DNA from: Anaerolineales bacterium
Lineage (GTDB): Bacteria > Chloroflexota > Anaerolineae > 4572-78 > J111
DNA length: 7,280 bases
NCBI GenBank assembly: GCA_012032575.1
Contig: JAAUSP010000394.1
Span: 1 to 7,280 of the forward strand
Direction: 5' to 3'
Shown here in pieces: positions 874-4,100 of the stretch (the stretch's first letter is position 1; each line of letters opens with the position of its first letter). Below the pieces are notes generated by a model. That model was not told the origin of the DNA, did not search any database, and saw only the letters and a program-made list of their open reading frames with translations. A program made the position numbers and the translations under genes.

Positions 874-1830
874 ATGGCAGTAGGAGCTTCAACCTCAGCC
901 ACCACCACGGCTGAAACCGGTGACAGAACCGAAAGTCTGCGCAAACGCATGCGGTTAGGCGAGGCGCTGATTCAGGGCTTTTTGTTTGCCTCCGGTGCTA
1001 TCTCAATCTTTACCACCCTGGGAATTGTCTTTGTGCTGGTTGAAGAGGCCTGGCTCTTCTTTGGCAGCGAAGAAGTGAGCATAGTCGAGTTTTTTACCAG
1101 TACTACCTGGCAGCCGGCGATCAAGGAATTTGGCATTTGGCCCCTGGTCAATGCCACGTTTATGACCAGTACGATTGCCATGCTGGTCGCCATCCCGTTG
1201 GGGTTGAGCGCGGCTATCTATCTGAGCGAATATGCCAGTTGGAATGCTCGTAACACGCTCAAACCCATTTTGGAAGTGCTGGCCGGCGTGCCCACCGTAG
1301 TGTACGGCTACTTTGCCCTCACCCTGATGACACCCTTGCTGCGCAGTATTTTCGGCCAGGGTACGGTCGAAATTTACAATACCGCTTCAGCCGGGATTGT
1401 ATTGGGTATTTTGATTATTCCGCTCATCGCTTCGATGAGTGAAGATTCCCTGAGCGCGGTGCCGCGGGCGCTGCGTGAAGCCTCGTATGGCCTGGGTGCA
1501 ACCAAACTGGAAACATCAATTAAAGTGGTTGTGCCGGCGGCGCTGTCGGGTATTACCGCGGCCATCGTCGTTGGTATTTCGCGGGCAGTGGGTGAAACCA
1601 TGATTGTGGCCCTGGCGGCCGGAGCCGGCCCCAACTTTACCTTCAACCCGTTCAAAGCCGCCGAAACGATGACCGGCCATATTGTCCGCATCAGCGGCGG
1701 CGACTTGAGCTACGGCTCGATTGATTACGACAGCATTTTTGCCATTGGCTTGATGCTCTTCCTGATGACCCTGGTCCTTAACATTATCAGTGGCTATATT
1801 GTGCGCCACTTCCGGGAGGTGTACGAATGA
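874..1830 (+). CDS. pstC: Phosphate ABC transporter permease PstC
   Basis: A 318-residue integral membrane subunit that forms the phosphate channel together with PstA. A hydrophilic cytoplasmic N-terminus (1-31) is followed by about six hydrophobic segments, near 32-60, 94-118, 134-156, 172-188, 222-250 and 286-312. The cytoplasmic coupling loop that docks on the ATPase is visible as VPRALREASYGLGATKLE (196-213). The conserved SRAVGET motif (236-242) holds the Arg and Glu typical of Pst permeases. Length matches the family. The ATG at 874 is preceded by AAAGGAG (854-860) with a slightly long 13-base spacer; no better start is seen. The stop overlaps the pstA start as ATGA at 1827-1830, indicating translational coupling. 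Nothing in the protein looks abnormal. Confidence 0.95.
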   Translation: MAVGASTSATTTAETGDRTESLRKRMRLGEALIQGFLFASGAISIFTTLGIVFVLVEEAWLFFGSEEVSIVEFFTSTTWQPAIKEFGIWPLVNATFMTSTIAMLVAIPLGLSAAIYLSEYASWNARNTLKPILEVLAGVPTVVYGYFALTLMTPLLRSIFGQGTVEIYNTASAGIVLGILIIPLIASMSEDSLSAVPRALREASYGLGATKLETSIKVVVPAALSGITAAIVVGISRAVGETMIVALAAGAGPNFTFNPFKAAETMTGHIVRISGGDLSYGSIDYDSIFAIGLMLFLMTLVLNIISGYIVRHFREVYE

Positions 1831-4096
1831 GCGCAGACCAAATGCCGGTCCCAACCGGCGCATTTCCTGAAGATGAAGCCCTGGCTCGCTTTGTCAAGCT
1901 GCGCAATTTTGTCGGCGGCCTGTGGAAGAACATCTTTTTCATCTCCCTGGTTATTGGTATTCTCTGCCTGATTGCGCTGATGTACAACATTGTAAATGGC
2001 GCGTTTGGGTATGTGGCGGTTGAAAACCAGGTGGAACCGGCATCGCTGGTTCTGGCGACCCAGGAAGAAGATATGCTGGCCCTGGCTAAAGTTGCCAGCG
2101 AAGACGACGATGAACTGGCTGCGGGTATTACCGGCAACCCCAATGCGATTGGTTTCTTTGGCTATGCTTATTACAAAGCCAATGCCGACAAATTGCAGGC
2201 TCTGTCTGTCAATGGGGTAGCACCCTCAGCCGAAACGGCCGACAGCGGCGACTATCCTATCTCGCGGCCCTTGTTCATCTATTCGGCTGAACAAATTATT
2301 CAGAAAAAGCCGCAGGTGGCCGCCTTTATCAATTACTACATCAGCCACGTCAACGATGAAATTGACGCGGTGGGCTATTTTCCGGCCAAAGCCGAAGCGC
2401 TTGACAGCGCCAAAGCCAACTGGTTAAAAGCCAGTGAAATGGATGCCGGCGCGGCTTTACCGGAGGTTAATCCGGCCTCGGTTGAAGGCAACATTGTGGC
2501 AGCCGGCAGTTCTACCGTCTTTCCGCTGACCGACCGCCTGGCTGCCCGCTTTGCCGAGGAAGGGTACGGCGGCACAATTAAGATTGACAACATCGGCACC
2601 ACCGCCGGCCTGCGCCAGTTCTGTATTGAGGGCAAGGCCGACATTGCCAACGCCAGCCGGGCCATCAAAACCCTCGAACGGGTTGCCTGCCGCAAAAAAC
2701 AACTCAATCCGGTGGAAATCCGGGTGGGCACCGATGCATTGGTGGTGGTGGTCAGCAAAGAAAACACCTTTCTCAAAAATGTGACCGTTGAGCAACTGCA
2801 AAAAATCTTCACCGACGCCAAAAATTGGTCCGATGTTGACCCCAGTTGGCCCAACGCCCCCATCGAACGCTTTATGCCCGGCGCTGACAGCGGCACGCTG
2901 GATTTCTTTACCGAAACCGTTTTTTCGGGGGTTGAATTGGCCGACCTGCCCAAAGAAGATTTGGTGGCGCTGCTCCTCAACACCACAGACTCGCAGGGTA
3001 AAAAACTGCTCATTTCCAAAGGCAAACTGCGCCAGTTGGAAAATGAACAACTCTTTTTTGAAGACCAGTTCTTAACCCTTGACCCGGACAAACACGCCGC
3101 CGAGTGCGCCGCTGCTAATCCCCCGTCCCGCTGCACCCTGCCCCCCCGCGACCAGGCCAACGTGCTGGCTCTGGTTCAGGAACAGCTTGTCGCGCCCAAA
3201 GTGGTCGCAAGCTGGAATCTGGTGGACTCGCTGACCAAAAGCGAAGATATCGTGGCCGAAGCCGCCGAAAAATTCCCCAGCGCCATCGTTGAATTTCGCT
3301 CCTGGATCACCCCGCAGTTCCTGATGGCGGCCCAATCCAGCGAACCGGCCCTGGCCGGTATTCGCACGGCCATTCTCGGCTCGCTGTGGACCATTGCCAT
3401 TACCATCCTGATCGCCTTTCCGATTGGCGTGGGTGCGGCCATCTACCTGGAAGAGTATGCCGGCAGTATCGGCAATCCCACCCTGCGCCAGATCAACACC
3501 ATCATCCAGACCAATATCAATAACCTGGCCGGTGTTCCTTCGATCATCTATGGAATGCTGGGCCTGGCTATCTTCGTCCGGGCGCTGGAGGCCATCACCA
3601 GTGGGGCGGCGCTGGGCGCGGCGGCTGATCCCACCACCGCCAACGGACGGACCATCATCTCCGCCAGTTTGACTCTGGCTCTGCTCATCCTGCCGGTGAT
3701 TATCATCAACGCTCAGGAAGCGATCCGGGCAGTGCCGCTGTCGCTGCGCCAGGCCGGGATGGCCCTGGGAGGCACCAAGTGGCAGACCATCTGGGCGCAC
3801 GTGCTGCCCAATGCTATCCCCGGTATTCTCACCGGCACCATTCTGGCGATGTCGCGGGCGATGGGCGAAACCGCCCCGCTGGTCGTCATCGGCGCGTCAA
3901 CCTTTATCACCGTTGACCCCGATGGACCCTTTTCCAAATTTACCACCCTGCCTATCCAGATTTATCAATGGACGGCCCGGCCGCAGGCGGAATTCCGCAA
4001 TATTGCCGCCGCCGCCATTGTTATCTTGATGGTTTTGCTGTTATCGCTCAATACATTGGCTATTATCCTGCGGAATCGCTACAGTCGGAGGCTATC

Positions 4097-4100
<4 letters not shown>
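1827..4100 (+). CDS. pstA: Phosphate permease PstA with an inserted, circularly permuted PstS domain
   Basis: At 757 residues this is more than twice the usual PstA length (about 280-300). Order: cytoplasmic N-terminus (1-32); TM1 (about 33-57); a PstS-like receptor domain (about 76-366) with its halves swapped; a further extracytoplasmic extension (about 367-505) containing Cys427 and Cys436; then the PstA core with TMs near 512-540, 565-588, 608-630, 655-690 and 725-748. The ATPase-coupling loop runs AIRAVPLSLRQAGMALGGTK (632-651), and SRAMGET (676-682) matches SRAVGET of PstC. The start is ATG 1827 with GGGAGGT at 1814-1820, overlapping the pstC stop; the stop overlaps the pstB start (4097-4100). 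The first loop of PstA is extracytoplasmic, so the receptor would sit on the substrate side. PstA identity is certain from the C-terminal 250 residues. That the insert is a functional receptor is inference from its retained motifs. Confidence 0.93.
2052..2924 (+). other. Circularly permuted PstS-like receptor domain inside PstA
   Basis: These bases encode PstA residues about 76-366. Residues about 91-202 match the C-terminal half of the free PstS of this operon (bases about 394-729), 67 of 112 by hand count: SEDD, AIGFFGYAYY, RPLFIYS, VGYFPA. Residues 265-365 match the preceding part of the free PstS, 58 of 101 by hand count: FCIEG, NASRAI, RVGTDAL, WSDVDP, DSGT. Between them, residues 203-264 contain a sequence like the mature N-terminus of a PstS, with a GSSTVFPL motif (227-234). 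The order is therefore C-half, linker, N-half. Both breakpoints fall in the same poorly conserved loop after the DSGT helix (free PstS residues about 102-128 of the window fragment), the classic sign of circular permutation. Cys266/Cys288 keep the 22-residue spacing of Cys2/Cys24 in the free protein. Confidence 0.88.

Follow-up and report, generated by a model that had tools for sequence, protein, structure and literature searches.

The stretch of DNA analysed here, referred to as the window, comprises 7,280 nucleotides from an Anaerolineales bacterium (Chloroflexota; contig JAAUSP010000394.1 of assembly GCA_012032575.1) and holds a pst operon: the end of pstS, pstC, pstA, pstB with a broken frame, a gene of the low-molecular-weight phosphatase family and two phoU genes. 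The subject is its pstA, which adjoins pstC and pstB both in the window and in those relatives whose contigs extend that far. An earlier note, made from the sequence alone, had read the single 757-residue frame as a PstA permease that carries the phosphate receptor PstS with its two halves swapped, and profile, PstS-repeat and 4jwo matches all agree with it. The features are collected in Table 1.

Table 1. Features of the fused pstA gene and of neighbouring genes in the window (TM, transmembrane segment)
Feature	Position	Strand	Remarks
pstA with nested permuted receptor	1827..4100	+	757 aa, single open frame
PstA N-terminus and TM1 up to insertion point	1827..2048	+	helix 17-59 and strand 60-66 predicted by model; insertion point from comparison with L128/L129
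Inserted receptor, residues about 75-368	2049..2930	+	not in plain PstA relatives
PstS C-terminal half (PstS positions about 162-284)	2055..2438	+	sequence and structure-entry matches
Linker from PstS C end to PstS N end	2433..2489	+	from sequence; model predicts no strand and only a 3-residue helix
PstS N-terminal half (positions about 2-164)	2490..2924	+	motifs GSST (227-230), SR (277-278), SGT (355-357)
PstA extracytoplasmic extension	2931..3326	+	found in plain relatives too; comparison with L128/L129 and model
PstA core, TM2 to end	3339..4100	+	BPD_transp_1 / TIGR00974
Free PstS, canonical order	1..729	+	5′ end beyond window
PstC, partner permease	874..1830	+	TIGR02138, 263.3 against cut-off 196.45
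pstB	4097..4893	+	frame interrupted near 4510-4525

In profile searches the pstA product is matched by TIGR00974 (PstA) over residues 493-752, with a score of 227.1 against a cut-off of 193.45, and in two stretches by TIGR02136 (PstS), with 217.7 against 206.6; PstS and permease are the sole families found in it by family scans. With a PstS-repeat query, residues 99-217 of the stop-to-stop open reading frame (ORF) correspond to PstS 165-284 and residues 226-383 to PstS 2-159, so the C-terminal half comes first, and the receptor departs from the N-to-C order that is canonical for TIGR02136. The comparison with 4jwo gives the same picture (residues 216-366 on chain 56-208, residues 90-185 on chain 220-322). 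The insert, of about 294 residues, lies between TM1 and the extracytoplasmic extension of PstA. Its empty site is seen in the plain PstA proteins L128 and L129 (69 and 67% identical to the window PstA over the shared part), where residues corresponding to 69-74 and to 369-379 follow each other in an unbroken loop, and the borders obtained from this comparison fall inside the junction ranges proposed earlier (2040-2060 and 2915-2935). The fused receptor is 58% identical to the free PstS of the same window over 212 aligned residues, within the 57-60% previously counted by hand. Canonical PstSCAB (E. coli, PDB 9k3s/9k3x/9k3y; TIGR00974, TIGR02136/PF12849) has the same permease, PstC, PstB and PhoU genes and the same receptor family, but its receptor is a separate protein in canonical order, whereas here a second, permuted receptor is nested in PstA.

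The same order of halves had been expected in related genomes, and many such homologues were found. Of 7998 candidates scored in a homologue search, 1263 reached an E-value of 1e-3 or better, and among the 120 of these that were listed the permuted order is common to 117, the other three being free PstS proteins with three tandem domains. In the fused proteins among the matches listed, the median PstS position at which the C-terminal half begins is 162 (155-172), and that at which the N-terminal half ends is 164 (157-177); the two nearly coincide, and therefore both cuts lie in one PstS loop, as the earlier note had placed them. A PstS of canonical order within PstA was found neither in the 120 listed homologues (of 1263 found) nor, in a scan at 30 bits or more, in 130 sequences (129 loci and the window). 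Eighty GTDB loci, kept from 112 relatives, were collected by patterns and hence are not a census; they include 13 with a fused ORF (L001-L013), one in which the fused gene is split (L015) and 66 with plain PstA. The 13 span Anaerolineales, Anaerolineaceae, Anaerolineae, Promineifilum, Ardenticatenia and Chloroflexota metagenome-assembled genomes (MAGs). In samples of whole genomes, fused matches were found in 17 of 396 genomes at class level (19 matches at 1e-148, two of them plain; one of the 17 truncated) and in 2 of 25 at order level. At phylum level one full-length fused match was found in 400 genomes, with 128 genomes having any match at 1e-60; there a very divergent fused form could show as a core match only, and the loci of 30 matches were read. 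No fused form was found in 296 genomes from the phylum of an Acidimicrobiia record at a threshold of 1e-140 (one match, the plain L044). The PstA-nested permuted PstS is confirmed as a real, conserved design in some Chloroflexota known mostly from environmental genomes. In L015 (1337-3492) the fused pstA extends over two overlapping frames, likely by an indel, and L074 (3340-5652) encodes a plain PstA whose TM1 and core are separated by a very long and seemingly repetitive stretch, in which no PstS match is found at 30 bits.

The two halves are confidently predicted to form a single two-lobed receptor, as had been proposed: the receptor model is one compact fold with a predicted local distance difference test (pLDDT) score of 91.9 and a predicted template modelling (pTM) score of 0.84. 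It superposes over both halves on 4h1x, on which the Foldseek lists agree, and over one half only on canonical PstS structures. 4h1x is a free PstS of Streptococcus pneumoniae (SP_2084), in which the C half of the window receptor corresponds to chain 48-116 and the N half to 155-256 of 265, the reverse of the order in the other PstS entries present in both match tables. By this comparison 4h1x is itself a natural circular permutant. No statement to this effect was found in the literature searched, and the stem 'permut' is absent from the main text of PMC4913102. That paper implicates both Pst systems of the pneumococcus in phosphate uptake (PMC4913102); thus, whichever of them owns SP_2084, a working transporter can rely on a permuted PstS. 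Where the N-half match to 4h1x breaks off, at residue 330, only nine positions of the chain remain, which puts the SGT motif at 355-357 out of reach. The 4h1x chain therefore ends ahead of this motif, and its cut point differs from that of the fused receptor; given this and an identity of 24%, the likeliest course is that the two were permuted independently. Natural circular permutation is also described for TpMglB-2 (PMC4990184) and for the glycine-betaine family with OpuAC 2b4l and 1r9l (PMC2395249). These too are permuted receptors of ABC importers, some of them tethered, but they belong to other receptor classes with other ligands, and the available parts of these papers describe no nesting in a permease loop. 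The earlier note knew of no permuted PstS nested within PstA; no recognisable description of a PstA-nested receptor or of a permuted PstS was found in a literature search that most subscription papers lay outside, but a permuted PstS as such does exist (4h1x).

Conservation points to a receptor under constraint. Ninety-one positions are at least 93% conserved in free PstS; 80 have the same consensus in the fused receptors, 46 of these at 90% or more. The motifs GSST, SR and SGT, phosphate-binding in E. coli PstS and presumably so here, are kept: an alignment of 118 fused proteins shows no variation at G227, S229, R278, S355, G356 and T357 and conservation of at least 90% at S228, T230 and S277, and S228, S277, R278, D303, S355 and G356 are retained in 35 of 35 fused rows. 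In eight pairs, the ratio of non-synonymous to synonymous rates (omega) is 0.07-0.21 for the receptor (in all eight) and 0.04-0.12 for the PstA core; the receptor is thus constrained, less so than the core, and the values bear out the suggestion of an old, maintained duplication.

The fused PstA is probably a phosphate permease subunit with its own permuted PstS receptor, judging from sequence, models and analogy. A complete PstS-type receptor, which the permutation has opened directly behind the SGT helix, is set by two short junctions in the first extracytoplasmic loop of PstA. The permutation would bring both receptor ends into one loop of the second lobe and so make splicing into a permease loop possible. 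Because pocket motifs, fold and operon are retained, the receptor is likely to be a working one; once mounted, it would close on phosphate and pass it in cis to the PstA/PstC pore, so that each PstA-PstC heterodimer would have one permanently local receptor, with free PstS as a second source. Cis delivery is suggested by GlnPQ and OpuA, whose attached receptors deliver substrate to their own permease; the linkers measure 19 and 14 residues in GlnPQ, and 11 residues plus an anchoring sequence in OpuA (PMC8025302; PMC11065425). As in those systems, the receptor is covalently part of the permease chain, here in one ORF. Theirs stands on linkers at a chain end of a homodimeric system, whereas that of the fused PstA lies between TM1 and TM2, with a separate pstC partner, and is held by short junctions that are predicted to be ordered (pLDDT 87-90 in blocks 61-80 and 361-380 of the whole-chain model). 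Tethering a receptor to a transporter in this manner appears to be new.

Several points weigh against this reading. Forty-five of the 91 positions conserved in free PstS have the same residue in fewer than 90% of fused receptors, and at E263 and R264, which hardly vary in free PstS, most fused receptors have R and A, so docking may differ; these two residues may lie on a docking face. The non-synonymous rate (dN) of the receptor is 1.5-4.2 times that of the PstA core. Plain relatives such as L128 and L129 do without the insert, which is thus not essential. The pTM of the whole-chain model, which bears on the pose of the receptor over the pore, is only 0.67, and tethered and free receptors could be in competition.

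Some of these observations would suit another role, in which the mounted receptor is a sensor, phosphate binding sets transporter activity or signalling through PstB/PhoU, and free PstS does the delivering. Of the 18 fused loci inspected, 15 also retain a free PstS, either entire or truncated where the stretch ends, upstream in the order pstS-pstC-pstA, and no locus is shown to be without it, since in the other three (L012, L015 and L114) the stretch ends too early to show an upstream pstS. The window operon has two phoU genes, the short junctions, predicted to be ordered, may prevent docking, and the altered E263/R264 would fit as well. A sensor is nevertheless rather doubtful: the pocket motifs and the two-lobed fold match a transport receptor, the GlnPQ and OpuA fusions deliver to their own permease, and the protein matches no family other than PstS and permease.

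Tentatively, permutation may be a repeated adaptation for anchoring receptors (OpuA receptor domain, TpMglB-2, 4h1x, fused PstA), which here would have allowed hard-mounting in a permease loop and have made Pst self-sufficient for phosphate capture, or else have provided a mounted second stage fed by free PstS. A receptor nested by permutation in a permease loop widens the designs of receptor-dependent importers in a family that normally uses free receptors. It also offers a natural one-chain system in which to study whether a receptor fixed in place can supply the pore it is attached to, and for what reason a free receptor is kept alongside.

It is very unlikely that the halves form no single receptor and are what an insertion left behind as a relic, broken or domain-swapped. 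What speaks for it is that fused PstA cores lie scattered among plain ones and that one plain form bears a probable scar (see below), so that loss of the insert is possible, and that receptor dN exceeds core dN. Against a relic stand the compact, high-scoring model, the match to the 4h1x crystal structure over both halves, purifying selection in all eight pairs and pocket motif positions that are invariant or at least 90% conserved in the 118 aligned sequences.

Slightly less probable still is that a free permuted PstS of the 4h1x type supplied the receptor ready-made, with no local permutation. Such a protein exists, but its cut point differs, and the 24% identity to it compares with 39-65% between fused receptors and the free PstS at their own locus (12 comparisons, 10 loci). 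In a tree of 112 receptor domains, 35 fused receptors stand on one side of a branch (SH-like approximate likelihood ratio test, SH-aLRT, 99) and 77 free single and tandem domains on the other; more than one receptor gain was considered and is not needed, since the tree has one fused side. Rooting by ten distant outgroup rows, which sit on a long branch, places the fused set inside free PstS with moderate support (nodes only 83-90), which also speaks against a ready-made source.

A single origin fits the receptor insert and not the PstA cores that bear it. A tree of 122 PstA cores does not bring the 35 fused rows together as a clade (7 changes, of which starred branches force at least 3), and a fused clade is rejected by the approximately unbiased (AU) test (p-AU 1.4e-9). 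When the plain rows are limited to the three nearest, L014, L021 and L086, such a clade is not rejected (p-AU 0.483), so losses in that group rest on a scar in L014. This plain PstA (6350-7888), near the fused L011 and L013, retains what appear to be the first ~22 residues of the insert; against the fused L012, L013 and L011, 0, 5 and 16 of 1000 shuffles score as high, and the resemblance is not significant against L126 or the window (716 and 414 of 1000). The segment is a probable scar of a lost receptor insert. By the same shuffle comparison no scar was found in the plain L086 and L021. One gain, followed by losses of the insert or transfers of pstA, would fit best.

As to how the insert came about, the earlier note had offered a segment spanning the junction of two tandem pstS copies. 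In the frame of a tandem PstS, a C-terminal half is followed by an N-terminal half, and an insert taken across that junction would thus be the simplest source. Tandem PstS proteins (P0018, P0083 and P0084; Herpetosiphon L034, L035, L039 and L040) belong to the same family, but are free and made of whole canonical copies. Two PstS domains occur in one ORF at 8 of the 80 loci (L003, L010, L034, L035, L039, L040, L047 and L080); tandem domains cluster within a protein or among close relatives and have had several origins (7 changes, of which at least 5 are forced). The LPEVNP stretch of the linker also stands ahead of PstS domains in the tandem protein P0018. The route is thus plausible, from the tandem loci, the three listed triple-domain proteins and the repeated origins, but the case for it is circumstantial. 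Most likely, the insert would have arisen once from a PstS-PstS tandem reading frame and later have been lost or passed between pstA genes. Between them, the plain relatives, the fused forms, the tandem receptors and, in one lineage, the probable deletion scar make the steps of this invention testable. P0018, P0083 and P0084 themselves are free PstS proteins of 940-992 residues with three whole tandem domains.

An assembly chimera of pstS copies and pstA, which the frameshifted pstB of the same window might bring to mind, has a negligible probability and is ruled out, as is chance, by the number and spread of homologues, with 117 of the 120 listed, from several sources, having the same order and cuts in the same loop, and with the fused form also present in MAGs on long contigs and in species genomes.

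As for the neighbouring genes, the two parts of pstB on either side of 4510-4525 lie in different frames, which may be due to a small indel or a sequencing error. Between pstB and phoU, the low-molecular-weight phosphatase-family gene (PF01451; 4932-5441, with a start that may be 4995) is possibly an arsenate reductase, given its context. The two phoU paralogues lie side by side at 5443-6820. The gap 3′ of pstB (4895-4985) resembles, by eye, a long imperfect inverted repeat.
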